From assembly GCF_963675165.1 (NCBI RefSeq), contig NC_087382.1:434001-498000 (forward strand): a DNA stretch of 64,000 bases, given 5' to 3'. This DNA is from Halichondria panicea (lineage: Eukaryota > Porifera > Demospongiae > Suberitida > Halichondriidae). A model generated the notes under the pieces. It did no database searches. It was given only the letters and a program-made list of their open reading frames with translations, and was not told where the DNA came from. Both the position numbers and the translations under genes were made by a program. Numbering within the stretch: the stretch's first letter is position 1; every line of letters begins with the position of its first letter. This document shows, piece after piece, positions 3,587-62,645 of this stretch.

Positions 3587-3707
3587 GTGAGTACAGACTA
3601 GACAGCACTGTATATACTGTAGATCATAATCATTGCACATGCACTCCCAATATAAACTATGCTCATACATTTCACTGCAATATCTTATTCCACACTCTAC
3701 AGAGAAG

Positions 3708-6700
3708 ATGTCTGACTATCTCACAATAGCAGATCTAAACAAAGTGTACCTCGCTACGTTTGAAGCTCGAATCAAGTGGCGAAACATCTTGTTGATGCTC
3801 GAAGTCTCTGCAGCTACAATTAGAAGCATCGGGAAAGAATGGAACAACTATCCTGATGACTGCTATCGTGAGGGGCTGTTGGAATGGCTGAATGAAGGAG
3901 AGAGAAGCTGGAAATCTATGGTCAAAGCATTGTCCAGTCCTACTGTGGGCCACGTTCACATAGCCAGGACCATTGAGAGAGATCATCTACAGTCTAGCAA
4001 TCCTACTGATGTGAAGTCAGAGGGTAAGTACCAATTAAGCATTTGAATGCATATCTCATACGCTTAATTTGTTAATATTTCACTCCCCCACCCACACAAT
4101 ATTCTACAGTTGACCAAAATCACCAGAAGATCAATGAAGATTTGACCATTTTCCTGGACGAGCCACTCGGTAGTGGTGCATTTGGAGCAGTCTTCAAAGG
4201 CAGCTACAGAGGCGATCCTTGTGCTATCAAACTATTACATCAGGTTGCTATGGAGATGCAGACAAATATTCCCGCCACCAAAAGTGAAGATGCTAGCGAT
4301 GCAATTGATCGTGAGAGTAATTTTCTCAAGTCGTTCCAGCACCCAAACGTTGTTCAGTTTTTGTCGACTGCTAAGCACCCCAAATCAGGTGGTACCATCC
4401 TCGTTGTTGAGCTGATGGATTGCAATCTGAGATCTTATATCTCCGGCCTTGGTGAAGAGTCCCTCACTAGCGAATGTGAAATTAGCCTCTCCAAAGACAT
4501 GGCTTGTGGTCTGGCCTACATTCACAGCAAGCAGATTATCCACCGTGACCTCTGTGGCGATAACGTCCTACTGAAGTTTACACTGCCAGTGCCTCTTGCA
4601 AAGATTTCCGACTTTGGTATGTCACGACTATACGATCCCTCCAAGCTTAGCTCCACCCTCACAGCCATTGGTCAGCGTAAAGGGTATCTACCTCCCGAGG
4701 CCTATCAATTAGAAGAAGAGAATTACGATAATAGCCTGGATGTGTTTTCCTATGGAGTGATTGTGGCACAAATTGTTTGCAAGCTAAAGACGATCAAATC
4801 AGCCAAGGATCGATCATTTCATGTTGCCCAGATCCCTCACACACACATGTTGAGGAAGCTTATCGACAGGTGTTTGCAAGAAGACAGGAGAAGGAGACCA
4901 TCTGCCAGGGACATCTGTGAGTCAATCAGATACCGTATTAGAAAAAATGGCGGGTATTATATTTGGCGAATGAGCCGACTTGGCAGTTTTTTAAAAGTTG
5001 GTGTCTCAGGCATGGCTACTACAGTAACAAGTGTTGCAAGGGTGCAGCTAATGCCTCTCACCATGTTTTTGCTTTCGCTCAAAAGTATTAGAGTGTTATA
5101 GAAGAGGTAAATAGTTTGCAATGTGCTTTGATTGTTTTACAAGGAAGGGGTGTCCACAGTTAATAGTGCATACTGATTGTCTTAAAATTAATGGCCTGTA
5201 GCCAAACAGTGAGAGCAAACCTTTGTCAAAGGCATAGTCAGTAGTCTGTGAGATAAGTATTAAAGACAGAATTCAATCACAAAAAGTAGTATCTACAACA
5301 AGCAGTCTAAACAGGACCTCAACAAAGAAGTTAATTCATTCTGCCAGGATCTGGGAGCTCAAAATGGATTCTCTTATACACGTTGGTATTGAGCGCGCAT
5401 GCGCATTACATCCAGGAATAAGAGGTGTATCTGCAAGGTCACAAAAATTAATAATAAAATGAGCTAGCTTCTTTAGCAGCCTCTTGTAGCTAACAAAAAG
5501 CTAGCGCTTTAGTGCAAGGCTAACTCATAATTATGTTGAATAGAGAGTTTGTGCGAACAGATGATGCTATGAAAGATTCTGAAGAGACTGCAACAGCCTT
5601 CAATGTGGGTCAAACTAGCCATAACTCGAGAAAGAAGCTTAGTTTGCTAATCCATGAATCAAAATCCAAGAGAACGTGGCTAGAAGCCTATAGAAGTTGT
5701 TAGTTTTCGTTGCATTGCAACCGTTGAGCAGTTACAGCTGGAACAGACACACACACACACAGTCAGCTTTAGACGGGCGTCGCCGCCCTACCTGAAGGAG
5801 GACAGGAACCAAGCCCATCTACAGTTTTGTTCGATCTGGCCTGTTACGCAATACATATTATGAATCTCATTATTTTAAGTGGGTGTTAGCCAATAGCGAT
5901 GAATATCACTTGTGTTGGTCACGCCTCTCAGTCAATCCAGTGTGTGCAAAATTACCACGTGTAAAGTTAAGTGGATGTGAAAACTGTAGATAAGCTTGGG
6001 TCCCGTTCTCCTTCAGGGAGGGCGGTGACGCCCATCTAAGTCAGCTTTACTGTATCCCTCGTGCGGCTACGCCTCGAGGCATAATAATATTGTGTCCCCG
6101 GAACACTTTAATTTGGCGATCTTTGGTTATTTTCCATGTATTATGAGTTATGCTTAATTACAATTCTAACCGTCAATTTTTCTATGGAACATTTAACTCT
6201 TACTTTAGACGATTTACTGCCAGTGGAGGAAACAAAGATGGAGTCAAAGGACATTCGACCAGTCAACCAGGTACGTACGTGTATAAGATTCCTATTTACA
6301 GCCACAACAACAATATAACTATAACTTAACTGAATGGGTTATTAATTTTGGTCTGTGAGTCAATTGTGTAAAGCATATTAAGCCACTAACTACACTTGTT
6401 GCATTTTGAGTGGGCAGATCAAAGGAAACACTGTGCCAATATCCGCCATATGGCAGGTCAAGCCTTGAACTGTGCCACTATCTAGATACTGGCATAGTAT
6501 GGCTGAAGTTACCTAAAGCCCACCCTCCACCCAGTAACCTGAAACGGTCCCTTTTGTAGTATAACACTGTTAAACAGATTCAGTGGTAGGCAGAAAACGT
6601 TTTTCATGCATCTGGTGCATTCCACAGCCACCACAAGTAGTTGAAACTAGTTGTCCTATAAAAGGAGTGATGTGTACACGGAAAGGAATGCACAAGGAAT

Positions 6701-7793
6701 GCAACAAATCAGTTGTTACACAGCTCACTACTGAGCCAATATATCCCATGTGGCACTGTGCATGTGTTACAACTATAACATAATTTGGAGTGTACTTATT
6801 TCCTGTGTTACTTTACGCTCATTCATTATTCAGGGTCCCCCTCCCAGAGAGTTGAGACCTCCACTCACTCTGAAAGGGAGAAGAGGGAAAGACATGCCAA
6901 TCAAGATGGGCTTCACTGTACAGAGTGTTGTTGTCGGTGACACGGTTTATGTTGGTGGAGGTGGTGGAAGTGGTACAGGCAATGATCATGACATGTGTAC
7001 AGTGATGAAGCTCGAGCAAGATCAATGGACCAAACTACCAGAGTACACTGCCAAGTGGTTCGCTCTGACATCACTCGCTAATCGACTAGTGCTGGTGGGA
7101 GGTCTTTATCCAAGAAACTACAAACGAACCGATCAACTTGCAGTATTTGAGTCAGGGAAATGGACTCACCCGTACCCACCAATGAACATTGCTCGTTCTT
7201 CCTGTGCAGCTATTTCCTTCAACAACCACATCATTGTAGCTGGTGGGGTAAATGATAAAGTTCGTATCTTCTCATCTGTTGAGTTGTTGGACGTGACATC
7301 AGAAATATGGTACATTGCTCAGTCACTACCTAACCCACGATCATCACTAAAATCAACTCTCATTGAAAACACCCTCTACCTAATGGGAGGGCACGCGTAC
7401 GATGGATTGTTGGGTAACACTGGGAGGTTAACCAAGACAGTGCATTACGTCGACCTCAATGAACTCATTGCAAAGGCCCATTCCAACCTGGACACACCTA
7501 CTCTTTGGCAGACCTTACAAGAAGTACCACTCGTGGGATCAGTTCCTCTCAGTATTGAGAGGTTACTATTAGCCGTTGGTGGACGAGACGACAGACAAAA
7601 GAACTTAAGTTTATCGATCCACTTCTACCAGCCTGACACCAGGAAGTGGGTGAAAGTGGGCGAAGACCTGCCTAATGAACGATACAACTGCACATGCTCA
7701 GTACTTCCTAGTGGAGAGGTCATTGTAGCCGGAGGACAGAAACAATCTAGTACTTGTATTCAACATGTGGATTTCTTTTCTATAAGTGCTTAA
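3708..7793 (+). CDS. Gene A: Death domain - TKL kinase - Kelch propeller protein (about 714 aa)
   Basis: Predicted exons: 3708-4023 (DD), 4110-4916 (kinase), 6209-6270 (linker), 6834-7793 (Kelch), all GT-AG, total 2145 bp in frame. Start MSDYLTIADL is chosen because it follows the acceptor CTACAG and is identical in genes B, C and D. The DD (residues about 1-98) has KWRNILLMLEVS and the P-DDCYREGL-EWL helices. The kinase has a Gly loop GSGAFGAVFKG (126-136), AIK Lys146, HRDLCGDNVLL (Asp252), DFG (273-275) and LPPEAY, so catalytic residues are present. The usual Lys/Ala after HRDL is Cys. The C-terminal exon gives six Kelch blades (GG pairs in VYVGGG, LVLVGG, IIVAGG, LYLMGG, LLAVGG, VIVAGG), the ring being closed by an N-terminal LKxRR strand. 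Likely a cytoplasmic signalling protein, by inference. No coiled-coil exon was found. Confidence 0.85.
5101..5770 (-). repeat. Intronic repeat, degraded copy of the TATGCCTCGG element family
   Basis: Within the kinase-linker intron of gene A. On the minus strand 5540-5720 matches the central part of the 30054-30666 element (the stretch around TCTCGAGTTAT and the following TTGC-rich segment). It includes GCGCATGCGC at 5395-5404. Both element ends are missing. Confidence 0.55.
5771..6037. mobile_element. MITE with about 60-bp inverted arms
   Basis: The left arm starts AGACGGGCGTCGCCGCCCT and the right arm ends GACGCCCATCT. The arms pair over about 55-60 bases with few mismatches, including the stretch reading ACAGTTTT next to the loop. 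A related copy lies at 47141-47383. No coding capacity. It sits in the gene A intron just before the linker exon. Confidence 0.7.
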
Positions 7794-7919
7794 TTGTTTT
7801 GGCACTTAATTGTTATAATGTCGTGCATTGAGTTAACAATTAACGTATACATACAATCTTGGTATGGTTACATGTATTTATGTTGTTTCTACAAGACTGA
7901 ATTATTGCAAAAACAATGA

Positions 7920-8125: not shown

Positions 8126-8331
8126 TCAAAAATAGTAGAAGATAGTAAAATTTTGTAGTTTTTCAGTGTTATCACAGCAATGGAATAAGCATAGAGAATG
8201 TTCTTGGTATCAAAATGTAGCCCATTTATCTGTGTACTTACTACAGAAATTATAAGCTAAGCTATTAATTTTTCAGAAGTTATTACTCTAACTACCTGAA
8301 AACCAGTAAATCATGAATTATAGACACTGTG

Positions 8332-8762: not shown

Positions 8763-9146
8763 AAGACCCATAAAGGGATGGTCAGGATACCTAAATTAAC
8801 CATTCAACAATTATCTTATGAAGTCTGAGACCATAGCTGTTTATAAGGTTAGTGATTACCCACTATAACAATTTGCTGTTGTTCTATTAAATGCCCCCAA
8901 ACCCACCACCTTATGTTTTCATGAACATTTTTTGGGATATATATTGTAGCTTATTCATTCACCTACACAATGGTATCAGCACCATTTCTTAGAAAGGTTC
9001 CAATCATAAGATATCAACATTTAAGTACAACCACTCACGCATTTGTGGTAATCTACTCTCTAAGCTGGATGCACTACCTGACATATATACACAAGTAAGT
9101 TTAACTGAGTTCATTTTAATTACATACAGCTCTGAATATTTTACAG

Positions 9147-11877: not shown

Positions 11878-11882
11878 AGAAG

Positions 11883-12198
11883 ATGTCTGACTATCTCACA
11901 ATAGCAGATCTAAACAAAGTGTACCTCGCTACGTTTGAAGCTCGAATTAAGTGGCGAAACATCTTGTTGATGCTCGAAGTCTCTGCAGCTACAATCAGAA
12001 GTATCAGCAGAGAATGGAACAATGATCCTGATGACTGCTATCGTGAGGGGCTGTTGGAATGGCTGAATGAAGGAGAGAGAAGCTGGCAATCTATGGTCAA
12101 AGCATTGTCCAGTCCTACTGTGGGCCACGTTCACATAGCCAGGACCATCGAGAGAGATCATCTACAGTCTAGCAATCCTACTGATGTGAAGTCAGAAG
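11883..12198 (+). CDS. Gene B, exon 1: Death domain
   Basis: Starts MSDYLTIADLNKVYLATF after the same acceptor as gene A and ends at phase 1 before GTAAGG (12199). The 105 complete codons differ from gene A at only a few residues (for example SISREWNNDPDD for SIGKEWNNYPDD), so duplication is recent. The next exon with matching phase on this strand is the kinase exon at 26547, more than 14 kb on across several transposons. Either gene B has a giant intron built by insertions, or this is now a solitary DD exon. Transcript data would decide. The DD is a six-helix protein-interaction fold of signalling adaptors (family knowledge). Confidence 0.75.
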
Positions 12199-16208: not shown

Positions 16209-16468
16209 CAGTAGAACCTCGATTATCCGGCCCTCGATTATCCGGAACTTCGATTATCTGGTCAGACTGATAGATATTTGTGTAGGGTCAAAGTTCAGCT
16301 ATGTTGACGAAAAAGGGGTGTGGTCAGTTGTGCGCATGCGCACTTATACTGATATACAATGCGCATGCGCGCACGCAGTTCAGGTAATCTGTGTAGTGAA
16401 CTGTAAAGCAGCTACAGTGTACAGAATTAATCTGTGTAGTGAACTGTAGCTGCAGGTGTTAGTACAGA

Positions 16469-41449: not shown

Positions 41450-44400
41450 ATGTCTGACTATCTCACAATAGCAGATCTAGGAGATCTATATATAGCTACG
41501 TTTGATGCTCGAATTAAGTGGCGAAACTTCTTGCTGGTTCTTAAAATATCTTCAGATACAATAGACAGCATTGGTAAAGAATGGAGCAACAATCCTGATG
41601 ACTGCTATCGTGAGGGTTTGAAAGAATGGCTGAAAGGTGGGGAGAGAAGCTGGGAAAATGTTGTCAAAGCTTTGTCCAGTCCTATTGTGGGCCACGTTCA
41701 CATAGCTAGGACCATCGAGAGAGATCATCTACAGTCTAGCAATCCTACTGATGTGAAGTCAGAGGGTAAGTACCTAACTACCTTTGCATGGAATGCATAT
41801 TTCATATGCTCTTTGTTAATATTTCACTTCCCCACACACACACACACACATAGTTGACCAAAATCGCCAGAAGATCGATGAATATTTGACCGTTTTCCTA
41901 AACAAGCCACTCGGAAGTGGTGCATTTGGAGCAGTCTTCAAAGGCAGCTACAGAGGCGATCCTTGTGCTATCAAACTATTACATCAAGTTGCTATGGAGA
42001 TACAGACAAATATTCCTGCCACCAAAAGTGAAGATGCTAGCGATGCAATTGATCGTGAGAGTGATTTTCTTAAGTTGTTCCAGCACCCAAATGTTGTTCA
42101 GTTTTTGTCAACTGCCAAGCACCCCAAATCAGGTGGTACAATCCTCGTTGTTGAACTGATGGATTGCAATCTCAGATCCTATTTCTCCGGCCTTGATGAA
42201 GAGTCCCTCTCTAGCGAATGTGAAATTAGCCTATCCAAAGACATGGCTTGTGGTCTGGCCTACATTCACAGCAAGCTGATTATCCACCGTGACCTATGTG
42301 GCGATAACGTCTTGTTGAAACTTACACGATCATTGCCTGTCGCAAAGATTTCTGACTTTGGTATGTCACGGCTATACGATCCCTCCAAGCTCAGCTCCAC
42401 CCTCACAGCCATTGGTCACCGTAGAGGGTATCTACCTCCCGAGGCCTATCGATTGGAAGAGGAGAAATATGATAGTAGCCTGGATGTGTTTTCTTTTGGG
42501 GTGATTTTGACGCAGATTGTTTGCAAGTTGGAGACGATCAAATCAGCCAAGGATCGATCATTCCATGTTGCCCAGATCCCTCACACACACAGGTTGAGGA
42601 AGCTTATCGACAGCTGTTTGCAAGAAGACATGAGGAGGAGACCATCTGCCATGGACATATGTGAGTCTATTGTGCATGATAAATTATGTGTTTTATGCAT
42701 GTGTAGATTTTATTTTAGATGCTTCACTGACAAGAGACTCGGACCCAGTGGAGACAGCAAAGAGGGAGTCAAAGGACACTCAACCAGTCAAGAAGGTGCG
42801 TACATGTAGTGTGTGAATGAGATTCCTAATTACAAACAACAGTACTGTACCTTAGGGTCCTGTTTCGTTTCTTTCGTAGACTGTATACATAATTATAGTT
42901 GTCCACTGCTATACAATTATGATAATTTACTATAATTTAAAGATTTCCACCAACGTTCCCCTGTACAGGCACACAGGGAACAGATGGAGCACAAAGATGC
43001 TGAGCTGGTCAGGAGAGACGCCATCATTCAACAACAGAGACAGGTGAGACGAAATGCACCACTCTAATTATTATTGCAGAGCTATAGTAGAAGCTTTGAT
43101 CTGTACTGTACATTCTGGGGGGCGAAAACTATAACAGTTTCTGTATAGGCTTCACATTCTCTTGGATTTTGATTCCTGGATATGCAAAGTAAAGCTTCTT
43201 TCTCGAGTTATGGCTAGTTTGACTCACATTGAAGGGTGTTGCAGTCTCTTCAGAATCTATATAATTATGGTAGAGTATCTTCTGTTCGCACAAACTTTTT
43301 ATTCAACATATGAGTTAGCCTTGCACTAAAGCGCTAGATTTTTGTTAGCTTCAAGAGTCAGAAAAGAGCTGGCTGCAAAGCTGACTGCCAGAGTGCTAGT
43401 GGCCATTGCAAACTTTAACCTATTGCGGATACACCCCTTTTTCTGCGCATGAGCATTGAATTCCATGTGTGAGATCCTGAGACAGAATGCAATTTCTTCT
43501 AGGTCCTGGTAAGCCACGAAACACTACAATGCTACCACGTCATGTATATAGATACCATACGTATAGAGGGTAATTTTCGTGGGGCAACATTTCGTGGTTT
43601 TTGTGGCTAAAGTTCTGACCACGAATATTTTACCCAGCGACCTCGCCTATACCCTTCCCAGCAGTGCAAGCAGCAGCCACGAAGATAATGACTATAAATA
43701 TTGCTCAACCACGAATATTTTGCCCCACACGCTGTATGGTACTCTTCTCTAGGAAATGCAAAATATACTTTGTAGATCTGCATGTAAAGTCTATTTGCGT
43801 TGAGTTTGGTCCCGGAAGTTATGTGGTCAATTATGGCTTTGTTTATGCTTTATGTGGTTGACAAGTATGCCACATGGAAAATGCTAACTTTTGCTGGTTA
43901 CAGTTTTTCAGCTCAACAGCATAATTATAATATAGTTAGACACTAGTTGATAAGATCTACATGGGAAGTACATGGGAAAAGTGCCTCAGAGCAGGTATAC
44001 TATAGGACTTAGTATACCTGCAACTTACTTAGTATACCTAGTACCGTATAGAGGGTATATTTCGAGGGTATAAATGTTCGTGGTTTTCGTGGATTAGGCA
44101 TGAACCGCGAACATTTATACCGCAAATTTAATATTCCATGCATGCATGCCGCAAAAAAGGCGCTATTCCACGAAAATTAAATCCACGAAAACCTTTCTAA
44201 AGGCACATCCGCGAAAATTTATACCCTCGAAATATACCCGCTATACGGTATTCCGTTGTGTATTGTAGTCAAGCCTTGAGGGCAAGGTTTGCGCATGCGC
44301 ACTAGTATCTAAACGAGTTAGACACTGTTTTGTCGGTGTCACACACACACACAAACACACTACCGTATACCAACGCGCATGCATGCACACCGAGGCAAAA

Positions 44401-45501
44401 TTATACACTTTTCACACCACTATACTTTTTAGATCATAGATCATTGTAATGAGCATTCAGACCAATTAATCTGCCAAATCTGAGAGATTAATAATTCAAT
44501 GCAGCTTGCAGCAATCGTTGTTACAAGTAACACTCGCTTGTTAGTAGACACTATCCTAATTACACTCATTCATTATTCAGGGTCCCCCTCCCAGAGAGTT
44601 GAGACCTCCACTCACTCTGAAATGGAGAAGAGGAAAAGACTTGCCAATCAAGATGGGCTTCTCAGTACAGAGTGTTGTTATCGGTGACACGGTGTATGTT
44701 GGTGGAGGCAATGCAGATGATGATCGGGATGTGTGTACAGTGATGAAGCTCGAGCAAGATCAATGGACCAAACTACCAGAGTACACTGCCCGGTGGTTCA
44801 CTATGACATCACTCGCTAATCGACTAGTGCTGGTGGGAGGACTTGACACACGAAACAACAAACGAACCAATCAATTTTCTATGTTTGAGTCAAGGGAATG
44901 GACTCATCCGTACCCACCAATGAACATTGCTCGTTCTTCCTCAACAGCTGTCTCCTTCATCAACCACATCATTGTAGCTGGCGGGGATGATGATAAAGGA
45001 CCTACCTCCTCCGTGGAGGTGTTGGACGTGGCATCAAGAAGATGGTGCATTGCTCAGTCACTACCTAACCCACGATCATCACTGAAATCAACTCTCATAG
45101 GAAACACCCTCTTCCTAATGGGAGGGTTCGATCACACTGATTGGGCAACCAAGACAGTGCACCACGTCGACCTCAATGAACTCATTGCGAAGGCCCTTTC
45201 TAACCTGGACACACTCACTCTCTGGCAGACCTTACAAGAAGTACCACTCGTGTGGTCAGCTCCTCTCAGTATTGGGAGGTCACTATTAGCCATTGGTGGA
45301 CGGGACGACAGAGTCAACCCAAGTCCATTGATCCACCTCTACCAGCCTGATACCATGAGGTGGGTGAAAGTGGGAGACCTGCCTACTGCACGACACAGCT
45401 GCACATGCTCAGTACTTCCTAGTGGAGAGGTCTTAGTAGCTGGAGGACAGACCAACCCATATCGTAATATTCAAACTGTGAACTTCCTGTCAATAAGTTA
45501 A
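41450..45501 (+). CDS. Gene C: Death domain - TKL kinase - coiled coil - Kelch protein (about 731 aa)
   Basis: Exons 41450-41765 (DD), 41854-42660 (kinase), 42719-42795 (linker), 42969-43043 (coiled coil, 25 codons, phases 0-0), 44581-45501 (Kelch). Total 2196 bp in frame, no stops. 5'UTR intron 41364-41444. The DD is more diverged (ADLGDLYIATFDARIKW). The kinase has GSGAFGAVFKG, AIK, HRDLCGDNVLL, ISDFGMSRL and LPPEAY. The coiled-coil exon (REQMEHKDAELVRRDAIIQQ) is almost identical to one in gene F and suggests dimer formation. The Kelch exon has six GG pairs. An AATAAA lies near 45605. This is the most complete member of the DD-bearing type and a good reference model for the family. Confidence 0.88.
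43553..43741. mobile_element. MITE of the TACCGTATAGCGGGTA family
   Basis: Imperfect inverse ends ATACCATACGTATAGAGGG and GCTGTATGGTA, with an interior ATTTCGTGG/CCACGAATATTTTACCC pairing. It lies in the coiled-coil/Kelch intron of gene C. Confidence 0.6.
44042..44250. mobile_element. MITE of the TACCGTATAGCGGGTA family
   Basis: Clean copy: left end TACCGTATAGAGGGTATATT, right end AATATACCCGCTATACGGTA. It lies in the same intron as the 43553 copy. 44291-44400 adds GCGCATGCGC and an inverted 5' end of the TATGCCTCGG family. Confidence 0.75.
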
Positions 45502-49747: not shown

Positions 49748-52700
49748 ATGTCTGACTATCTCACAATAGCAGATCTTAAGAAAGTGTACTTAGTCACGTT
49801 TGATGCTCGAGTTAAGTGGCGAAACATCTTGCTTGTTCTGGATGTATCCCCGGCTACTATCAACAACGTAGGTACGAAATGGCGTGACAATCCTGATGAC
49901 TGCTATCGTGAGGGACTGTCAGAGTGGCTAATAGGTGGAGAGAGAAGCTGGGAAGATGTGATGGGGGCTTTGTCCAGTCCTATTGTGGGCCATGTTCACA
50001 TAGCCAGAACCATTGAGAGAGACCATGTACAGTCTACTGGTGCAAGCCATCTCACGACTCAAAAGTTCCAGGGTACGTACCAATATAGCACTGTGCGTGT
50101 AATATCGATTTTTCGCATTTTTGTATTTTAGATGGTTCACTGACAGGAAGCTCGGACACAGTAGAGGCAATGAAGAGGGAATCAAAGGACACTCAACCAC
50201 TCAAGAAAGTTCGTACATGTATAGTGTGTGATTGAGGTTCCTAATTTTAGCCACTGCAATCATTATTACCCGAGGCGCATGTGGGCGGCCACGGGTATAG
50301 TAGTCGTCTCGTGTGTCTGTTTGTGATTTCTGAGCCTGCTCACATGGATGCCACAGCAGTACGTTTACAGCATGGATAGCCTTCCAACATAAAGTTACTA
50401 GTTATGCCTCGGTGTGCATGCGCAAGCGAGGTATACGGTAGTGTGTTTGTGTGTCTGTGTAGACTGCTATAGCTGCTCAAGGATGAATCAAGTGCAAGTA
50501 AGAGTTTCTATAGCTAAGGCTTCTAGTCATGTTTACTTGGATTTAATTCGTGGATTTGCAAAATAATGCTTCGTTCTCGAGTTATCTCTTTCCTTGGCAA
50601 TCTGTTGTAGAAATTACAACAATGGGTAAGGAATCGTTATGATGAATTAGATGAAGTTGTATGTGAGCTCCTCCCTGACAAACAAACTGTAGTCTAGGTA
50701 ACCGCCTTATCAGTCAAGTAGGCTAAAAATCTGTGTCCTTTGATGTAAGCTTTGATGTCTCTTTGTGCATATGTAGTTATAAAAAAAAAAAAAAAAAAAA
50801 AAGAAACCTTTGACTAGCTAGGAAGAGTAGCAGCAGTAGTAGTAGCAGTGCAAGCAGGACTAGACTAGATTAAAAAGTTGATGGAAAGAATAACTGACCG
50901 TTCGGACGTCACCTGGCTGCCAGACTTTCATCTGGACTCTTCCCCCTGAGTAGCTGGCCTTTCTCTAAGCCACAAAACTGAGCAAGAAGCTGAAGAAGCA
51001 GCTAGACAGAGACATGTACCTAGCCTTGAGAATTGGGAGGCGTGGCTCAACTAGTTAGCCCAGCCCAGAGGAATTGTTACCGTGGGTACTGAACAACCGT
51101 AGAAGTAGGGCTACCCCTGGCTTTACTGAATTAACTAGCTGTGTCTGCTGTCTAGTTGGACCAGATTTAGCTAGATAATGGGGTAGAGAATAGTTGAGCG
51201 GTGCTGTGTGTAGCTTGAACTGTACTGGCTGGCAAGAATCTAGTAAGCACCCTATGCACTGATAACTCGTCAGAATGGAGGGTATGTTCTAGGGATCTGG
51301 ACAGCTGTACATCCAAAGGAGCCAGGGAGTGCCAATCATCTTCTCCCAGTCTCTGACACGCTAAACAAAAGGAGCTAGAACTGGGAGTCCCAGCTAGAAT
51401 TGCTAGCCGGATCTAGACTAATAGAATGACATGGAGGAGTGGTGAGGCCGGATCCACACTAATTGATCGACCTAAAGACGCTCCTGTTCCAGATTTCACG
51501 AATGGCAAGGAAAGGGTTATGCCTAGTTTTGCTTAGTTATACTTGGAATGCCATTGCAGCCTTTTCAGAAGAGCACGTAGCCAAACTTGTTTACCGAGTG
51601 TTGCTACTCTACTTAGTAGTTAGCTCTGCACTAGAACGCTAGCTATTGGTAGCTGCAAGAGTGAGAAGAGAGCTGCAAGGCTCTGCTGACTTGCAGCCAT
51701 TAATTTTAGGCTTGAACTCTTGGCATAGATCGTTTTTAACAACAATCATCGTCGATCATTACCCACTCCTTAAGTTTCCCTGAATTTTGCATGCAGTAAA
51801 ATTAAAAATGTTCATCATGATAATTATAATCAATGTGTGTAGCTTAGTAGCTTTATGTTATGTAGCTTTGGCACCTCCACCGAGGCATCAGCACCCGCGG
51901 TACTTTCATTTTAATAGTGGCATGCAGATTTATGCTTCGTTGTCGAATAAAAGCTAAGAAGCTTGAACTTGCACATTTGCCACAGAGGTTAGTAGGCAGC
52001 TTTAATTCGAGGCACTATTTACAGCCATGAAACATTATTCAAGGGAAGAGACTCCGGGCTTCTTTGCTGGCTACTACATGTGAGCCTACTTCGGTCCCAC
52101 TGCATGCAATAACCGACACCTGGTATCCTACTTTTAACACTCCATGCAGGCCTGCTCTGCTGTGATGTCCCAATCTGAGCTGCTCTGACCTTCCCGTGGC
52201 CTCAAGAGTCTCTGAGTGTTTTCTGAGCCTTCGTTGCTGCATGAGTGTAGCCTAAATAACGGTCCAGGACTCCCAACCCAGATCTCCAAGTGCATGTCAG
52301 ATTTGTATTAACATTTTAGGTTGCTTCTTTCTGCTGGCTCTGCCCTAATCCTATAGTCTTAGTGTATGTCTGACCATGCATCACTACCATTTTCAAAGCC
52401 TTTTATCATAGCGTTCAAATCTTATTTTCCTCTGTATAGTTTAGGTAGTTGCTGCTAGGCTCTTCCGTGTTCATGTACGTACCGTATCATTACCTGTTTG
52501 GTTGTGAGACGTAAAATTAGCCAAGGGTTAGCACTTAGCGGGTACAGTAGTCCGTTTTGGTATTTGTGAGGTTTCAAGCTAAAGGGGTCCAAATAGCGAG
52601 GGTTTACTATAATAATTTATTATACAATATCTTATGCACATGTCAAACTAATGCCCCACCCTGGATAGGTGGGGATTAGACCAATCAGCTGCAAATAATT

Positions 52701-54892
52701 ATCAGGATTTTGGATATGGGGGGGGGGAATTGGGCAAATATTAAAAATGTATATAGGAGCGGCGAAGTCATCAGAATTATAGCAGTACAAATGAATCTAC
52801 CAGATCCTTGGGGGCGGGCGAATTACCCCCCTCACCTTCCTCCCCCCCCCTCAATGCAGCCCTGATTATGTAGATCTACGTCGAATAAAGGTCGCGTGTT
52901 AGAGCTAGGCAACGTGCAAGTTCAAGCTTTTTAGCTTTTGCTCGCTTTTATACACAACGAAATTTTAACATCGAAATCTGCCACATTTAAAACTGTTGTG
53001 TGGAGGCTATCCATGCTATAAACCCAGTGTGGGCAGTCCAACATCTCTAGTACTGCATGCCCATGCTCATTTTCACCCTTCTACCACTCTTCTACCCTCA
53101 CACGACTTTCCCGATACAGGCTACATATATTTATCAAGCTGGCTGCTGTAAAGCTTCTTCTCCTTTTTTCCTAACTCTATATACGTCTATTTCTTTCTTT
53201 ATTCCTCCAATTAATACCGTATTTTATCTCATTGAACAAATAACACACTTATTAAACGATTGTGATAAAGAACAGAAAGAAAGAAAAAGGAGAGCCTGTG
53301 TAGAGGCTATAAGATCTACCACATTTGTACTAAAACTAAAGCGCTTCAACTGACACTTGAGATTATATGAAACACAGTACACCGATGAGTTGCACAATCT
53401 TAGCTATTATGAAGTACTAAAGATATCATAGTGTGAAAAAAGAACGTTTTGTATTTTCACAGAAGTCTCTTTTCCAACTGATGCTTATCATTAGGGGGCA
53501 TGAGAATGACGTTTTAGGGGGGCTCTGAATATCTTGCAGTGATCATAATTCATGACCCATTGTTTCCTGCGTGTGCTCAGCCGTAACACGGATTAGCATA
53601 AAAGCTCTCAGATATCATTTGACGCTACTTCCGTTTCCAATCCCTCTCCCTTTTTAATGGTTATTTGCAATAAATGCTCTAAAATAGACTCGGAAGCTTA
53701 AAACTGGGTGTGTGGTCACTGGTCAGTAATTAGCAAATTGCTGATGGAGATGATGTTTCGAGGAAACACAACTTTCTTATTTTGACCAAGTTACCCGGCA
53801 AAACTGAAGCCTCGTTTCAAGGGCGAAAAACAGATAGTTTTTTAAGCTTCACTGCGGATGCAATGTAAAAACATTACGTGCACCTAGGAGTCGCCTCTTC
53901 AGCTAAATAGAAAAAGTGATTTATTGTACATGCACAACACCTATTAGTAGACACTTCATTATTCAGGGTCCCCCTCCCAGAGAGTTGAGACCTCCACTCA
54001 CTCTGAAATGGAGGAGAAGAGGAAAAGACATGCCAATTAAGATGGGTGGCTCGATACAGAGTGTTGTTATCGGTGACACGGTGTATGTTGGTGGAGGTGC
54101 TGCAGACAATGATCGGGATGAGTGTACAGTAATGAAGCTCGAGCAAGATCAATGGACCGAACTACCAGAGTACACTACTAAGTGGTTCGCTATGACAACA
54201 CTCGCTAATCGACTAGTGCTGGTGGGAGGACGTGATCCACTAACCAAAAAAAAACTAATAAACTTGCAGCCTTTCATTCAGGGAAATGGACTTACCCGTA
54301 CCCACCAATGAACATTGCTCGTCATTCCTCAACAGCTGTCTCCTTCAACAACTACATCATTGTAGCTGGTGGACAAGATGATAAAGGACGTACCTCCTCT
54401 GTGGAGGTGTTGGACGTGGCATCAAGAAGATGGTACATTGCTCAGTCACTACCTAACCCACGAGCAGTACCAAAATCGACTCTCAATGTCATAGGAAACA
54501 CTCTCTATCTAATGGGAGGGTATAATCAGACGGGGATGACGATCAAGACTATGCATTACGTCGACCTCAATGACCTCCTTGCAAAAGCCAAATACAACTT
54601 GGACACACCCACGCTATGGCAAATGACACATGATGCACCCCTCTATGTATCAGCTCCTCTTTGTGTTGGGAGGTCTTTATTAGCCGTTGGTGGATGTGAC
54701 AACAAGGGTAACCCAAGTTCATCGATCCTCCTCTACCAGCCTGACACCAGGAGGTGGGTGAAAGTGGGGGACCTGCCTACTGCACGATACCACTGCACAT
54801 GCTCAGTACTACCTAGTGGAGAAGTCATTGTTGCCGGAGGACAGACAAAACGTTGCATTCAAACTGTGGACTTCTTCTCTGTATGTTCTTAG
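49748..54892 (+). CDS. Gene D: Death domain - Kelch protein lacking the kinase exon, one frameshift
   Basis: Exons 49748-50072 (DD, ends phase 1), 50132-50208 (linker, starts phase 1), 53967-54892 (Kelch). 5'UTR donor at 49564. The DD exon joins the linker directly after a 59-bp intron, with no kinase sequence between, and the phases still agree. The DD is clear (KWRNILLVLDVSPATINN, then REGLSEWLIGGERSWEDV). The Kelch frame breaks at a run of nine A (54246-54254). Up to there it reads VLVGGRDPLTKKK, and after it, in the other frame, NKLAAFHSGKWTYPYPP, so one base is missing. The remaining blades are intact to the stop. It could be a recent pseudogene, a sequencing slip in the homopolymer, or slippage-tolerant. 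An AATAAA follows near 54933. Confidence 0.75.
50404..51907 (+). mobile_element. TATGCCTCGG-family element split by another insertion
   Basis: Starts TATGCCTCGGTGTGCATGCG and ends with the GCACCCGCGGTACTTTCAT hairpin end. Its middle is interrupted at the GTTAT of TCTCGAGTTATGCC by the 50586-51515 element. It lies in the linker-Kelch intron of gene D. Confidence 0.75.
50586..51515. mobile_element. 930-bp insertion with GTTAT target duplication
   Basis: Flanked by GTTAT at 50581-50585 and 51516-51520, and by short imperfect inverse ends CTCTTTCCTTGGCA and TGGCAAGGAAAGG. Inside are an A20 run (about 50779-50800), a CAG/TAG trinucleotide patch, and the segment shared with 24535-24690. A short frame WVRNRYDELDEVVCELLPDK near 50610 is too short to assign. 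Confidence 0.65.
51908..53966. other. Remainder of the linker-Kelch intron of gene D
   Basis: No convincing exon. It has G and C homopolymer runs at about 52718-52726 and 52842-52850, and short chance ORFs (for example 53057-53353) without motifs. No coiled-coil exon like that of gene C was found. Confidence 0.4.
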
Positions 54893-55828: not shown

Positions 55829-57430
55829 TTATTGGTGAAACAGCCTATTCTGAGTGTCCTTTATCGAATTACATTGCCACAGACACAGACAATAATAGTT
55901 CTTGGTTGGGGTCTTGTTCGACAATAGGGTGGACGCCTTCTCCCAGAATCCAAAGTCTATCTCCTCTTCCGAGTCAGACAGTGAGGGGTGGGGCTCGGGA
56001 ACTGAGGAGTTAAAGAGTCACATGGTCAGAGAAATGAATCAACCAAATGAAAATACGTTGATGAAATTGGAGAGTGCAGTACATGTACTTGCAAAACACG
56101 ATGACCCTTTACCTAGTATGCTCCAATAGTGACATATACATTACAGGACCTTTACCTAATCTGCTCCAATAGTGAGAGGTACTTCTCTTTGTACTCATCT
56201 CTCTCCCTCAGCACACGGGCCACCTCCAGCGCCACCTCCAGCCTCGACACATGCTCTCCGCTAACATCCCCCGGTATCACTGGAGGATCCTCCTCAAGGT
56301 CCTTATGTAACTTTTGAACATCGATCTCGGTGAATCGGGCTCTTGCAAAGCAGACGCTGAGGACTCGACAGTCGCCTTGTCTGTGTGTGGCAGGAGGAGT
56401 GAGGGGGCGTGTGTGGTGTGTGTGCAGAGACAAGGGTAACTAATGCAATCAAGAACCCAATAAAAGTGAAGGTGAGCTCAGCAGCTGCAAAAGAGCCATT
56501 GAGCACATAAGTTCTGCGTTTCACTTGTTTTCTAAATGACGGACACTAAAAGCTTTCTTATTAGGCACTCTTCAATTATAAGCGCTCATATCGTTCCTGG
56601 GATGATAGGCACCTCTGCTTAATAACACACGTCTACGTGTATACAAGTCAACAAAGCTCTCAGAAAGAGACCTACAATGTGTATAGTTGTCTGACATGCT
56701 ATCACTCACTTTTCCAGCATCAGTTCCTCATTGTCTATAATGATCTGATCCACTCCGGGTGTGTTGCTACTGCTGGTTGCTAGGTGGAGGTCCGCTAGTA
56801 AGCCTTCCTCGTTGGGATCAAAGTCCACCTCACCTGGTTGGTACAAATCCTCAGGTCTGGTAGGGAGGGAAATACATGAACAGTAATAGTGTACCTGAAT
56901 TCTGGCTAAAGCAATAACATTATTATAACTCTACAAACACAAACACATCTTCAAAACTATACATGTAGCAAAGGCAATGGCTTCAAGCAACTCCACTATA
57001 ACACAAGCACTGGCAAAGGTCAAATACTCGTGTCATTATAGGCCGTGACAGTGCTTGTAATACATGTACTCACGCACTCTTCAACATCATAACAATTTCA
57101 AACACATTTCTGCTATTCCGGACCATCCAAACAAATCAAAGCCCCCCATACATACAGTGTAAATGTTGGCAGTACGTACATATCCTATAGAGAAGCTCCC
57201 CCCTCACTGGATAGAACCTGTTAGGCTAATAACAACACTACCACTCACTCATCATCCAGTGTGTCATCAGACTCTGCATCTTTACCACAGCTTCGTCATG
57301 TCCTGATTGGCCAGGAACTCGCTCTCCTCAGCAATGGTCTCTTTCCATGGTCCTGGCTATGTCACTGTGGTCCACTATAGGACTGGACAAAGCTTCCACC
57401 AAATACAGGCAATAGTTTGGCCAACTTCCT
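55829..57430 (-). pseudogene. Convergent coiled-coil gene, copy G2, with a Death-domain-like relic at its 5' end
   Basis: Minus-strand pieces: DD-like VEALSSPIVDHSDIARTMER followed by a stop (57328-57430); 56856-56710 (PEDLYQPGEVDFDPNEEGLL, then VDQIIIDNEELMLE); 56380-56156 (RLEVALEVARVLRERDEYKE, then KYLSLLEQI); 56001-55829 (LSDSEEEIDFGFWEKAST). Borders fit GT-AG. The ARVLRERDEYKEK helix resembles the RH2 region of JIP3/SPAG9-type JNK scaffold proteins (MARVLxERxxYKE), and IIxxNxxLLEK resembles their leucine zipper. This is suggestive only. The DD relic matches the ALSSPIVGHVHIARTIERDH end of the plus-strand DD exons, so the two gene types share a module. Confidence 0.5.
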
Positions 57431-57575
57431 CCATGCTTTAAGTGTCAGACTACATTTTCTTTTTCTTGAAAGCATGTGGTTTGCTGATTCAGCAATATTT
57501 TTGCGAGATTGGAATTCTTTATACAAAAGAGGGCGTGTCTTGTAGCTTACAAAATAATGCAGAGATAAGATTAGA
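57431..57575. promoter_or_regulatory. Candidate bidirectional promoter between G2 and gene F
   Basis: 145 bp between the DD-like relic on the minus strand and the ATG of gene F. It contains TGCTGATTCAGCA (57482-57494) and GGGCGTGTCTTGTAG (about 57531-57545), the latter shared with the gene C promoter (GGCGTGTCTTATAG). Confidence 0.45.
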
Positions 57576-60500
57576 ATGGCTGCAATGTTTTCAGCTCTTC
57601 GAGATGACGCTAACTTGAGGGAGTTTGTGCTGGAGAATGTGGAGCACTTTGGAGAGGAGAGAGTTCTAGGAACTGGCTCCTATGGCTCTGTTCAAGAGGT
57701 CAGTCACTGCATGCTCTGCCGGTTTCTGTGCACTGTCTCTAGTGTATCTGCTAGCTATTCAAGTGTGACTGCCTCCATGCACAGGTGAAGATCAATGGTG
57801 AGGTGTATGCAGCCAAGAAGATCCATGAGGTTCTCCTGGAGACGGACGAGCATGGTGGAGTGGCCAACATAGATGGGAACTACCACCGAGAGTGTCGACT
57901 CATGGCTCGCATCCGTCACCCCAACATCACCCAGTTCATTGGGCTGTGTTTCGTGACTGGCTCTCGACTTCCCCTCCTGGTCATGGAGAGACTGGACTCA
58001 AGTCTGGACGATCTCCTGGAGTCCACCCCCAACATCCCCCTCTCTGTCTGCCAGTACATTCTGGTCTGTGTGGCCCGAGGGCTGCTCCACCTGCATCGTG
58101 AGTCTGTGGTCCATCGTGACCTCACTGCCAAGAACGTCCTGCTGACGGTATCTCTGAGAGCCAAGATCACAGACTTTGGTAACTCTCGTATCGTGAATCT
58201 GGAGCCTGGTCGACTGGCCAGGACTCTGACGAGGCTTCCTGGGACACTGGTGTACATGCCGCCCGAGGCCCTCTCTGACAGAGGCCACAGTGTGTACGGA
58301 CCCAGTCTGGACGTCTTCTCTTTCGGAGTGCTGCAATTGTTTGCACTCACACAAGTATGTGTGTGGTTACTGATACTCATTGGTAGATTCCATGGTTATT
58401 ATTATACCTGTACTCACCTGGCTGCCATAGCACTGCGTTTACACAACAAGTTATTATGCCTCGGTACGCATACACAAGCGAGGTATACTGTAGTGTGTGT
58501 GTGTGTAGACTGCTACAGCTGCTCAAGGATCAATGAAGTGCAAGTAAGAGTTTCTATCTTGGATTTAATTCGTGGATTTGCAAAATAATGCTTCGTTCTC
58601 GAGTTATGCCTAGTTTTGCTTACTTGGAATGCCATTGCAGCCTTTTCAGAAGAGTCCGTAGCAAAACTTGTTCACCGAGTGTTACTACTCTACTTAGTAG
58701 TTAGCTCTGCACTAGAACGCTATAGCTATTGGTAGCTGCAAGAGTGAGAAAAGAGCTTCAAGGCTCTGCTGACTTGCAGCTATTAAATTTAAATTTGAAC
58801 TTTTGGCATCGATCGTTTTTAACAACAATCATCGTCGATCATTACTCACTCTTTGAGTTTCCCTGTTACTGTATAGCGGGTATATTTCGAGGGTATAAAT
58901 TTTTGCGGATGGACCATTACAAAGGATTTCACGGATTTTATTTTTGTGGTCTGACTTCCAGCCTTCTGGCGCATGCGCACATCAACATGCAGCTGTACCT
59001 CCACACCGTTAGCCTCGAATCCATAATACTGAACACGCCTACTATTCATAAATTTTCGTGGGTATAAATTTTCGCGGTACAGGCTCAAATCCGCGAAAAC
59101 CGCGAACATTTATACCCTCGAAATATACCCGCTATACGGTATTCTGGATTCTGCATACATGCAGCAAAATTAAAATGTTGATCATGATCAATGTGTGTAT
59201 AAAAGCTAGCTATTATGTAGCTTTGGCACCTCCACCGAGGCATCAGCACCCGCGGTGCTTTCAATTAATTTCTTTCGTCGTATAAAAGCAGGCACTAAGA
59301 AGCTTGGACTTGCACGATGGCTGGCTCTACCGCGACCTTTATTCGAAGTAAAGCACCAGCTAAAGTTATCGTTTACCGGTCTCTGTTAAAAGTAGTTTGT
59401 TGTTTGTAATAAACTGAACAGTCCTCTGGTTTCATAGATATAGCACTTACGTACATTCCTTTGTAATGGAGTGTAACCTTATCCGTATTGTGGTATTGAA
59501 TATGTTGGGTAGATCCCCTAAATGGTTGACTTTGCCTTTTAAGATGTAGCCTCGGTCCCAGGCCGGAAGGGGGAAAAGTACGGCCGGGTATACCTATTGC
59601 ATGGGTAATAGTGCGCTACTAATTTACTCTCCGTAATCTGGAGAATCCCCTTTGTCTTTCGTTGTAAAGCACTTAGCCCTCTATTACGTTGGTCCAGGAG
59701 GCCTGCACACTTAGTCTGAAGAGGCTCTCATCATTGTCATCAACCTCTATGATGGTTGTATGGTCGGGATGTCTGATTCTGTACATGCAGGCTATAATTA
59801 TGGTGTTCCCAACTGCTACTTGCGAACCATTATAGAGGTAGATGACATTGATGGCCACTGTTCCCTACGTGTGTCAGACAATCCTAGTATGAGTCCTATG
59901 CATACTTACTACATATAGTATAATGGGATGCAGTATTTATATAGCCTGTGTCTCCAGAGGATCCTTATATTGGTTGCGTGCATAGAGCATTTATGTCCGG
60001 GAGGATCCTGCCATTGGATGCCATACTTGCATCAGAAAAGTTGAACCATGCAGGAACGAGGCTATACATATGATATTATGAGATTTAGCGCCTAGGCAAA
60101 TTGTATTTGCCTGGGCAATTAAATGACACATGTACGTACATATATGTACATACATGCAATCATGACACTCAGTATTGACATGCTCTTCTACTCCAGGTGT
60201 TTCCAGGAGATCTCCTTGCCCCCACGTACAGCGACCCCAACAACCCAGACCACCTCCTGGCTCGCTCAGAGTTTGAGCGTCGAGGTCCCTACACGGCTCT
60301 CCTTGAGAAGAGTATGGTGGGCGGACGTGAACACCTTCTGTTTCGTCTGGTGAGGGAGTGTCTGGCCAACACTCCAGAGAAAAGACCGGCCACCGCTGAG
60401 CTCCTCTCGTCTCTGGAGGAGGTGGGGAGGGAGATGGACGGAGAATTGCTCCAGCTGGACATTGCACGAGTGAAGACTGCCAGGACCCTCAGGGCAAAGG

Positions 60501-62645
60501 AGAAGAGGATAGAGGCTCTACAGGTGAGTCCAGTCCAGTGAGCTAGTGGGTGCAAGGGTCTGACACTGCAAGCTGTACTCTGTTCTCAGAGAGAGATGGT
60601 CGAGAAGGACAGGATATTGGAGAGGAAAGACGAGCAAATAGTACAAAAAGATGAGCAATTAACTGAGAAAGATGCACTTCTGGCACAAAAAGATGACCAA
60701 CTGGTGCAAAAAGACAACCAACTTGAACAGAAAGACGCACTTCTAGTAACAAAAGATGTTCAAGTAGCCGACAAAGATACTCAACTTGCTAGACAGCAAG
60801 AGGTCAGCAGAACCATATTACCAACTATTTTGTATGTTGATCCAACCATGCAATTTGAATACAGATATTGAATAGTGTCCGTGCCACCAAAGATGGTATG
60901 ATTGCTGACAAGGACAGACAACTCAGTGAACAAGAGTCAACAATCATTTCCCAGAGAGAGGCTGCTCTAGTTGAGAGGGACGCTCTCTCACAGGTATTAT
61001 AGTAGTCACCAAATGTACACACTCTTATACTCTAGTACTGTACAAGAGTGTAGAATTGTCCACTGCTACAATAATAATATTTACGTCTGTGTTTTGATTT
61101 GAAGATTTCTACCAACGTTCCCCTGTTTTCACTTTATTCAGATATTGAATAGTGTCCGTGCTAATGCTGCCACCAAAGATGGTGTGATTGCTGACAAGGA
61201 CAGACAACTCAGTGAACAAAAGTCAAGGATCACTGATCTCATTTCCCAGAGAGAGGCTGCTCTAGTTGAGAGGGACGCTCTCTCACAGGTATTATAGTAA
61301 TCACCAAATACACACACTTTTATACTCTAGTACTGTACATGAGTGCAGAATTGTCCACTGCTACAATAATATTCATGTCTGTGTTCTAATTAGAAGATTT
61401 CCACCAACGTTCCCCTGTACAGGCACACAGGGAACAGATTCAGCACAAAGATGCTGAGCTGGTCAGGAGAGACGCCATCATTCAACAGCAGAGACAAGTG
61501 ACACGAAACGCACCATTATAATAATTATTGCAGAGCTATAGTAGAAGCTTTGATCCGTTATAATCGTACTGTACATTCTAGTGGACTGGTGGGCGTCGCC
61601 TCTTAAGCTAATTAGAGAAAGTGATTTAGTGTGCATACAATTATTGCTACAAGTAACACTCGCTTGTTAGTAGACACTATCCTAATTACACTCATTCATT
61701 ATTCAGGATCCCCCTCCCAGAGAGTTGAGACCTCCACTCACTTTGAAATGGAGAAGAGGGAAAAACATGCCAATCAAGATGGGCAGCTCGGTACAGAGTG
61801 TTGTTATCGGTGACACGGTGTATGTCGGTGGAGGCAATGCAGTCAGTGATCGTGACGGATGTACAGTGATGAAGCTCGAGCAAAATCAATGGACCAAACT
61901 ACCAGAGTACACTGCCAAGTGGTTTGCTATGACGTCACACGCTAATCGACTAGTGCTGGTGGGAGGACTTGACACACGAAACAACAAACGAACCAATCAA
62001 TTTTCTATATTTGAGTCAGGGGAATGGACTCATCCGTACCCACTAATGAACATTGCTCGTTATTCCTCAACAGCTGTCTCCTTCAACAACCACATCATTG
62101 TAGCTGGTGGGGTTGATGGTAAAGGACAAACCTCCTCTGTGGAGGTGTTTGACGTGGCGTCAAGAAGATGGTACATTGCTCAGTCACTACCTAACCCACG
62201 AGCAGTACTGAAATCAACTCTCATAGGAAACACCCTCTACCTAATGGGAGGGTTCGATCACACTAGGAGGGCAACCAAGACAGTGCACCACGTCGACCTC
62301 AATGAACTGATTGCAAAGGCCCTTTTCAACCTGGACACACCCACTCTCTGGCAGACCTTACAGGAAGTACCACTCGAGCGTTCAGCCCCTCTCAGTATTG
62401 GGAGGTCACTATTAGCCGTTGGTGGAGCGAACGACAAAATCTTAACAAGTTCATCGATCCACCTCTACCAGCCTGACACCAGGAGGTGGGTGAAAGTGGG
62501 AGATCTGCCTACTGCACGATACTACTCCACATGCTCAGCACTTCCTAATGGAGAGGTTATTGTAGCCGGAGGAGAGACAAACGCTGATTACATTCAAACT
62601 GTGAACTTCTTGTCAATAAGTTTAATTGTTTTGTTTTGTACATAA
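57576..62645 (+). CDS. Gene F: TKL kinase - coiled coil - Kelch protein (about 840 aa), intact
   Basis: Eight exons: 57576-57698, 57785-58354, 60197-60523 (kinase); 60590-60802, 60865-60993, 61142-61288, 61423-61497 (coiled coil); 61707-62645 (Kelch). All GT-AG and phase 0 throughout, total 2523 bp, no stops. The kinase has GTGSYGSV, VYAAKKIHE (Lys), HRECRLMARIRHPN, VVHRDLTAKNVLL, KITDFGNSRI and MPPEAL, so it looks active, and it is clearly diverged from the A-C kinases and split by two introns. The coiled coil begins as seven-residue QKDxQLx repeats. Exons 60865 and 61142 are tandem duplicates (ILNSVRA, then DKDRQLSEQ). The last coiled-coil exon is nearly that of gene C. The Kelch exon is like those of A-D. 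There is no DD. Probably a dimeric signalling kinase with a propeller sensor (inference). Confidence 0.88.
58455..59263 (+). mobile_element. TATGCCTCGG-family element in the kinase intron of gene F
   Basis: Starts TATGCCTCGGTACGCATACA and ends GCACCCGCGGTGCTTTCAA. It contains a nested MITE at 58868-59141. It separates the two kinase-lobe exons without affecting splice sites. Confidence 0.75.
58868..59141. mobile_element. MITE of the TACCGTATAGCGGGTA family, nested
   Basis: Left end ACTGTATAGCGGGTATATTT, right end AAATATACCCGCTATACGGT, TA on both sides. Comparison with the 50404 and 30054 elements shows it was inserted after TTTCCCTG of the host element. Contains GCGCATGCGC at 58969-58978. 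Confidence 0.75.
59264..60196. other. Rest of the kinase intron of gene F
   Basis: 59548-59590 holds a TAGCCTCGGTCCCAGGCCGG end of the MULE-like MITE family. The remainder has short chance ORFs only. The intron ends CTACTCCAG before exon 60197. Confidence 0.4.

Follow-up and report, generated by a model that had tools for sequence, protein, structure and literature searches.

A lineage-expanded family of kinase-Kelch genes in the sponge Halichondria panicea: candidate recognition receptors with swappable signalling ends and a diversified propeller face

What kind of protein family is encoded when death domains, kinases, coiled coils and Kelch propellers lie side by side on one strand, in exons whose borders fit one another? 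A stretch of 64,000 nucleotides from the demosponge Halichondria panicea (C6:434001-498000, on contig NC_087382.1; genome size 131 Mb), referred to here as the window, raises this question. A first-pass annotation had described it as a tandem family of genes joining a death domain (DD), a tyrosine kinase-like (TKL) kinase, a coiled coil and a Kelch domain, and had read each gene as a sensor-to-signal module on one polypeptide. Our analysis of the window (units A to E), the surrounding array, the rest of the genome and database proteins points, as the reasonably probable explanation, to recognition receptors of the cytosol that form a lineage-expanded family and whose signalling ends can be swapped. 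The role of such a family would probably be in innate immunity.

Diversification of the Kelch face

Variability was mapped on 44 distinct Kelch exons, 14 of them genomic (from C6) and 30 from database proteins. Column entropy averages 0.55 bits in this set, and some columns exceed 3 bits. When the positions of each blade are numbered relative to the final G of a strand-terminal GG, the variable positions are a pair of strand residues (mean entropy 2.23 bits at offset -16 and 1.53 at -15) and the loop after the GG (2.45 bits at +1, 0.85-2.09 at +2 to +7 and 1.17 at +8); the remaining offsets from -24 to +15 have 0.67 bits or less. Every one of the six blades has at least one member of the -16/-15 pair above 1.8 bits, and the per-blade set of sites holds 27 of the 30 most variable Kelch columns. 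None of 305 circular shifts matches the observed contrast (1/305 for the strand pair alone); the site set of this shift test was picked after the entropies were known, and the hold-out test described below is its held-out version, on paralogues of the same genome.

Alignment of the blades with KLHL12 and IVNS1ABP places the strand pair after the conserved R of the blade and the variable loop after the GG. The equivalent positions of Keap1 include Ser363, Arg415, Ser508, Ser555, Ser602, Tyr334, Arg380, Tyr525 and Tyr572, the Nrf2-binding ring. The variable positions of all six blades presumably line the ligand pocket of Keap1-type propellers.

The ratio of nonsynonymous to synonymous rates (dN/dS) was estimated by a simple counting method on 12 C6 exons, two near-identical ones of the 14 intact C6 Kelch exons having been dropped, at sites chosen on 26 proteins from outside C6. 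The ratio is 3.53 for 12 sites, 1.92 for 24 (bootstrap 1.23-2.99), 1.59 for 36 and 1.29 for 54, and it is 0.46-0.6 in the rest of the Kelch exon (0.6 beside the 12 sites and 0.54 beside the 24); because synonymous rates are raised at the face, these exact values are not to be trusted, and what counts is the contrast. When the offsets were derived from three blades and applied to the remaining three, the ratios were 1.5 and 1.41, as against 0.62 and 0.55. The signalling exons have values of 0.27 (A-type kinase, as in genes A, B and C), 0.29 (E-type kinase exon, as in gene E) and 0.31 (DD), from 7, 7 and 8 copies, respectively. No column in these three sets exceeds 2 bits, compared with 11 of 306 in the 12 C6 Kelch exons. 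The comparison supports the view that the Kelch face has been diversified by positive selection and that the framework and the signalling modules have been conserved. Many tandem copies and positive selection at one face are what a diversified germline immune receptor family would be expected to display, the face being the presumed site of ligand contact.

Organization of the window and of the C6 array

The features of the window, positioned by self-BLAST where copies are concerned, are as follows (window coordinates).

3708..4023, + strand: gene A DD exon, 316 bp, ends in phase 1; not found by Pfam, a DD by homology
4110..4916, + strand: gene A A-type kinase exon, 807 bp, phases 1-1
6209..6270, + strand: gene A linker exon, 62 bp, phases 1-0
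6834..7793, + strand: gene A Kelch exon (Pfam, gene model)
11883..12198, + strand: DD exon assigned to gene B (self-BLAST, gene model); link doubtful
26547..27353, + strand: gene B A-type kinase exon, 807 bp
27440..27516, + strand: gene B linker exon, 77 bp, phases 1-0
30734..31645, + strand: gene B Kelch exon (Pfam, gene model)
36842..37762, + strand: Kelch pseudogene, with a stop after 55 residues and frame changes
41450..41765, + strand: gene C DD exon (sub-threshold in Pfam, gene model)
41854..42660, + strand: gene C A-type kinase exon, 807 bp, phases 1-1
42719..42795, + strand: gene C linker exon, 77 bp, phases 1-0
42969..43043, + strand: gene C coiled-coil exon, 75 bp, phases 0-0
44581..45501, + strand: gene C Kelch exon (Pfam), the reference for the variability map
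49748..50072, + strand: unit D DD exon (self-BLAST)
50132..50208, + strand: unit D linker exon, directly after the DD
53967..54892, + strand: unit D Kelch exon, broken in two where the frame shifts near 54.25 kb
57334..57474, - strand: antisense DD-exon fragment (self-BLAST)
57576-57698 and 57785-58354, + strand: gene E E-type kinase exons 1 and 2
60197..60523, + strand: gene E E-type kinase exon 3
60590-60802, 60865-60993, 61142-61288 and 61423-61497, + strand: four gene E coiled-coil exons, all 0-0
61707..62645, + strand: gene E Kelch exon; its identity to the Kelch of RefSeq protein P0025 is 100%

The window thus contains four DDs, three A-type kinases, one different kinase (in E) and six Kelch exons, all on the + strand (open reading frame (ORF) listing, Pfam and self-BLAST). 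The first-pass annotation had counted five Kelch genes and one pseudogene on the same strand. The strand stands; the count becomes four intact Kelch exons (A, B, C and E, with Kelch_1 at 67-85 bits in Pfam) and two broken ones, at 36.8 kb and in D with its frameshift. The gene models stay open across GT-AG introns and encode 714 (A), 703 (B), 731 (C) and 840 (E) residues. Their exon phases are those that had been described: 0-1 for the DD, 1-1 for the 807-bp kinase exon of A, B and C, 1-0 for the linker (62 or 77 bp), 0-0 for the coiled coil and a start in phase 0 for Kelch. The same borders recur in C6:400-658 kb, where eight of the nine A-type kinase exons measure exactly 807 bp (in the ninth match the initial residues are missing and no proper acceptor was found), all 13 DD exons end in phase 1 and each of the 11 recognised linkers ends at a GT donor in phase 0. 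Among modules above the thresholds, C6:419-657 kb contains 13 DDs, 9 A-type kinases, 8 E-type kinases and 22 Kelch places, all on the + strand; two of the Kelch places are short fragments, two are split and one is cut short.

The proposed order of DD, kinase, coiled coil and Kelch is complete in the window only in C. No coiled-coil exon was found in the window genes A and B, no kinase exon was found in unit D, and gene E has no DD and carries a different, multi-exon kinase (35% identical to the A-type). Gene B is peculiar in that its DD lies 14.3 kb upstream of the kinase, with a DDE transposase gene between them; DD-kinase gaps elsewhere are at most 2.0 kb (103 gaps measured, 5 kb limit), and the DD assigned to B may belong to a broken unit. 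The putative B intron holds, at window positions 16463-18203, a pair of overlapping ORFs resembling a DNA transposon of the Tigger/Jerky type, the first with a DNA-binding look (judged by eye) and the second a DDE_1 match of 134 bits. Between A and B, ORFs at 9120-10821 encode a Ulp1-type protease (Peptidase_C48, 32 bits) and a PHD finger just under the cut-off, and possibly belong to a mobile element.

Domains on one chain

Whether these exons are joined in one protein can be judged from database models of paralogues. A search with the gene C model, in a database clustered at 90% identity and with RefSeq models that are automatic predictions, gave 521 matches, the best 120 of which were listed; the best 34 of these (P0001-P0034) are all from H. 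panicea. Fourteen of the 120 (P0001-P0014) carry both kinase and Kelch families, with more than 1260 bits to the full gene C model, and all 14 also match the DD. In the BLAST alignment, twelve of them span at least 99% of gene C, with identities of 77-82% in eleven and 53% in P0010, and P0005 and P0009 span 59%. A short coiled-coil motif occurs in 8/14 by a strict pattern. In addition, locus L034 encodes DD and kinase in one uninterrupted ORF of 415 residues, in which a short intron-like stretch stays open. These models support the claim that the domains share a polypeptide. Gene E has a close database counterpart in P0025, with 100% identity in Kelch, 99.5% in the kinase exon and 93.6% over 840 residues.

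Identity of the death domain and kinase

Pfam Death scores 13.6 bits in gene C, below the cut-off of 22.6, and has no match for the DDs of A, B and D in the window ORF scan. The gene A DD, however, finds a homologue at C3:8275384 (E-value 9.9e-16) that itself scores 34.6 bits for Pfam Death. Locus L033 has a different, strong Death domain (54.1 bits) ahead of an A-type kinase 92% identical to that of A, and in L035 (C28:38301-39950) a single ORF, ahead of an A-type kinase, combines a strong Pfam Death match (65.5 bits) with a window-type DD. The score of the homologue and the Death domains in the same position in L033 and L035 indicate that the DD slot is a Death-domain slot. C28, with its 94,770 bases, possibly represents a copy of the C6 array that was left unplaced.

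The kinase exons of A, B and C score 129-133 bits for Pkinase in Pfam, and the catalytic K, HRD and DFG motifs, inspected by eye, are intact in A, B, C and E. The solved structures matched by the A-type kinase include EGFR (the top match, 74.8 bits), CTR1 (67), CERK1 (67), LIMK1 (64), B-Raf (62), IRAK4 (62) and ALK (61.5).

Genome-wide expansion and exchange of modules

The genome search scored the best 150 of 597, 142 of 773 and 125 of 446 candidates for the DD, the kinase and Kelch, respectively. There are at least 125 Kelch copies, all 125 scored copies (the best 125 of 446 candidates) having matched, and they are concentrated in C1:15.48-17.39 Mb and C6:0.42-0.80 Mb. Grouping of 119 of 151 DD matches and 115 of 142 kinase matches (weaker ones were dropped) with 125 of 125 Kelch matches gives 59 DD-kinase-Kelch groups, 55 of Kelch alone, 40 DD-kinase, 11 DD alone, 8 kinase-Kelch, 4 kinase alone, 3 DD-Kelch and 3 others; partner modules may be missing from some groups, because only scored candidates enter them. 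Succession of DD and kinase on the same strand occurs at least 104 times, with a median gap of 130 bp. The Kelch-alone groups are partly E-type or CARD-like units, since the N-terminal modules of such units lay outside that search. The succession of DD, kinase and Kelch described from the window recurs in the genome in at least 59 groups, and the description as a tandem family of phase-compatible, exchangeable exon modules is supported.

We considered whether the repeats are haplotype copies. Equal scores at C6:501400, C6:659785 and C28:12827 do inflate the counts; most of the 125 copies, however, are 75-82% identical to A. On C1, two mirrored blocks of the family lie at 15.48-16.13 Mb (-) and 16.7-17.39 Mb (+) with several equal-scoring pairs, which suggests a large inverted duplication or uncollapsed haplotypes.

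RefSeq isoforms reveal a third N-terminal module of about 384 residues, with a CARD-like start and a further domain. It has 15 copies at 85% identity or more over at least 240 residues; 12 of these lie in the C1 arrays, and every one of the 12 has a Kelch downstream on the same strand, 0.9-2.7 kb away. A Pfam scan of the module itself gave no match. A relative, P0132, scores 18.2 bits for CARD, below the cut-off of 23.9, and the model of another relative, P0121, has a predicted local distance difference test (pLDDT) of 88-94 over residues 21-100 and matches the CARDs of ARC, NLRC4, NOD1 and Apaf-1 in Foldseek. The sub-threshold score and the P0121 model support a CARD-like assignment for this module.

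Exchange also affects the C terminus: P0021 is a DD-kinase protein with C2 domains, and P0071 combines an E-type kinase with a GTPase. The C-terminal sensor appears to be swappable as well, since P0071 joins the Kelch fragment at 643 kb to an AIG1-like GTPase. Such fragments, the first ~61 codons of a Kelch exon, occur at C6:643330-644592 (L027) and C6:545491-545658 (L017). Another database protein, P0134 (LOC135337711), carries a window-type DD and a dynamin-family GTPase.

Relation to known systems

The first-pass annotation, which knew of no described vertebrate protein with this order, had used a vertebrate frame, the wrong one for a sponge. Keap1 and the KLHL proteins (BTB-BACK-Kelch) share the Kelch propeller, and the variable positions correspond to their substrate face by blade alignment to KLHL12 and IVNS1ABP and by the Keap1 contacts. 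The sponge family differs in its kinase, its DD or CARD-like N-terminal modules, its very many copies and its diversified face; Pfam scans that covered 20 ORFs of the window, together with P0001, P0010, P0020 and P0025, gave no BTB or BACK match. IRAK and Pelle proteins likewise have an N-terminal DD followed by a kinase, and IRAK4 is among the nearest solved kinases. The sponge proteins, in contrast, carry a Kelch sensor on the same chain, and the resemblance lies in the domain order only; descent from IRAK does not follow, since EGFR, CTR1, plant receptor kinases, LIMK1 and B-Raf match the kinase equally well or better. NOD-like receptors (NLRs), including the expanded NLRs of the sponge Dysidea avara as excerpted from PMC12909245, resemble the family in a DD or CARD N terminus, a variable C-terminal sensor and expansion in sponges. 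They differ from it in that the sponge family has a kinase and Kelch, and neither NACHT/NB-ARC nor leucine-rich repeats were found in the window ORF scans or in P0001, P0010, P0020 and P0025.

The protein P0069 of Dysidea avara and two from other sources, P0068 and P0070, also have a kinase followed by Kelch, P0070 with a coiled-coil-like stretch. They are, however, 27-34% identical, and their kinase begins within about 30 residues of the N terminus, which leaves no room for a DD; they are not known to have undergone expansion or diversification. Among the matches listed, DD-kinase-Kelch occurs only in H. panicea, and the DD-kinase part occurs also in P0035, P0039 and P0051. The open-licence PMC literature, as excerpted, yielded no account of kinase-Kelch or DD-kinase-Kelch proteins as a sponge family, and a sponge DD/CARD kinase-Kelch family of recognition receptors looks undescribed.

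In the excerpts used here, sponges are described as being without bona fide Toll-like receptors (PMC6208332), and their discrimination of microbes is largely discussed in terms of NLRs and scavenger receptor cysteine-rich (SRCR) proteins (PMC6208332, PMC12909245, PMC4772301). In excerpted tables for Aplysina aerophoba and Dysidea avara, each table has a single 'Kelch motif containing' gene that falls strongly after exposure to microbial patterns (PMC6208332); these genes may or may not be relatives of the H. panicea family, and the observation is a hint only. Kelch-type and kinase families are among those that differ between niches in Mycale grandis, according to an excerpt of PMC11000336, and the word Kelch is absent from the main text of the Stylissa/Xestospongia hologenome paper as excerpted (PMC4772301).

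Proposed mode of action and alternative explanations

Each unit combines an N-terminal signalling module with a six-bladed Kelch propeller, and between them lies a linker to which coiled-coil exons may be added. The N-terminal module is a DD with a TKL-like kinase, a DD by itself, a second kinase, or a CARD-like module joined to a further domain. In the mode of action that we propose, the presumed ligand face, made up in every blade of the loop that follows the GG and of one or two strand residues, may bind a microbial or host-derived ligand. Chains would be clustered by the coiled coil where it is present, and clustering might activate the kinase or nucleate DD/CARD signalling, as in innate-immune receptors. 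No membrane-span-like stretch was found in A, B, C or E (top 19-residue hydropathy 1.5), so the proteins are probably cytosolic. Selection that is restricted to the presumed Kelch pocket lends independent support to the original sensor-to-signal reading. Only one window unit has the full four-part order. If the proposal is true, an early-branching animal would have a further recognition repertoire, with at least 125 Kelch copies and a propeller instead of leucine-rich repeats. Since the variable sites are few and named, ligand screening and structural work would be directly feasible.

Several observations weigh against this proposal. For all 54 per-blade sites, the bootstrap interval of the ratio of nonsynonymous to synonymous differences (pN/pS), 0.99-1.90, includes 1. 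Synonymous rates are also raised at the variable sites (0.26-0.41 versus ~0.15), and alignment error, gene conversion or clustered mutation may inflate dN/dS there. The C6 and C1 copies are paralogues of one genome and are not independent. The Keap1 pocket mapping depends on the KLHL12/IVNS1ABP alignment and on the Keap1 contacts. The AlphaFold2 model of the DD (23 sequences) is poor, with a pLDDT of 47, and the DD call rests on sequence homology; the TKL label is not settled, because EGFR is the best solved match of the kinase. For the CARD-like module, no fold match of the P0121 model has an E-value under 0.001 (all are 0.07 or more), and the same ranking includes phosphatase ectodomains, which are unrelated. 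Finally, no 90%-identical protein for A, B or C is present among the 120 representatives listed, the best full-length identities among the matches listed being 77% (A), 79% (B) and 82% (C). Since the database is clustered at 90%, no such protein is hidden behind a listed representative, and the gap is real.

The proteins could instead be diversified regulators or substrate adaptors of the sponge's own proteins, following a KLHL-like logic in which the kinase replaces the ligase arm and each face has an endogenous partner. The nearest solved Kelch chains include KLHL12, KLHL3, Keap1 and IVNS1ABP, together with designed Kelch proteins, and the KLHL proteins and Keap1 bind endogenous partners. 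We nevertheless consider this explanation unlikely: BTB and BACK are missing from the scanned ORFs and proteins, the number of copies and the pocket dN/dS above 1 (C6 sample) suit a moving target better than fixed partners, and DD and CARD ends are common in immunity and cell death.

Expansion by duplication, with exposed loops under relaxed constraint, would make many units non-functional and the apparent selection an artefact. Two of the six window Kelch exons are broken, A, B and C are unmatched among the database proteins listed, equal-scoring copies recur, and synonymous rates rise at the same sites, all of which would fit. Purifying selection on the framework of Kelch (0.43-0.62) and on kinase and DD (about 0.3), together with hold-out pocket values above 1 (bootstrap lower bound 1.23 for the top 24 sites), makes it improbable. 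A self/non-self (allorecognition) or symbiont-tolerance system using the same diversified face would suit the very many similar germline copies and the pocket diversity but is equally improbable, since none of A, B, C and E shows a membrane-span-like stretch, as judged by hydropathy and with no signal-peptide predictor run, which makes direct recognition at the cell surface unlikely.

Possible combinatorial joining of modules

The N-terminal modules might also be spliced to any of several downstream Kelch exons, which the phase-compatible module borders make conceivable. We consider this a less likely possibility; if true, one locus would yield a matrix of signalling ends by recognition ends. 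Of particular interest are the isoforms of LOC135352306, which, like P0030 and P0032, are automatic models. X3 and X4 have their first 485 residues in common and differ in their Kelch exons, and X3 and X5 share the last 334 residues with CARD-like versus DD-kinase N-terminal modules. The CARD-like module lies at C1:17339184-17340329, the X4 Kelch at 17341191-17342123 and the X3/X5 Kelch at 17357528-17358466, and a separate DD-kinase-Kelch unit (C1:17347620-17350781) lies between the two Kelch exons. The X3 join spans ~17 kb and skips two Kelch exons, one of them within that whole unit. On C6, P0030 joins an N-terminal module at 590.6 kb to Kelch at 621.0 kb, and in P0032 the N-terminal module lies at 525.7-526.5 kb, its Kelch partner being either the exon at 556.2 kb or the near-copy upstream of that exon. 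Such isoforms may be real or a mapping artefact, since the near-invariant first codons of Kelch could let junction reads land on the wrong Kelch exon. A further candidate for shared splicing, P0043, which has 436 N-terminal residues in common with P0025 (gene E) and a different Kelch and gene name, is explained by a recent duplicate.

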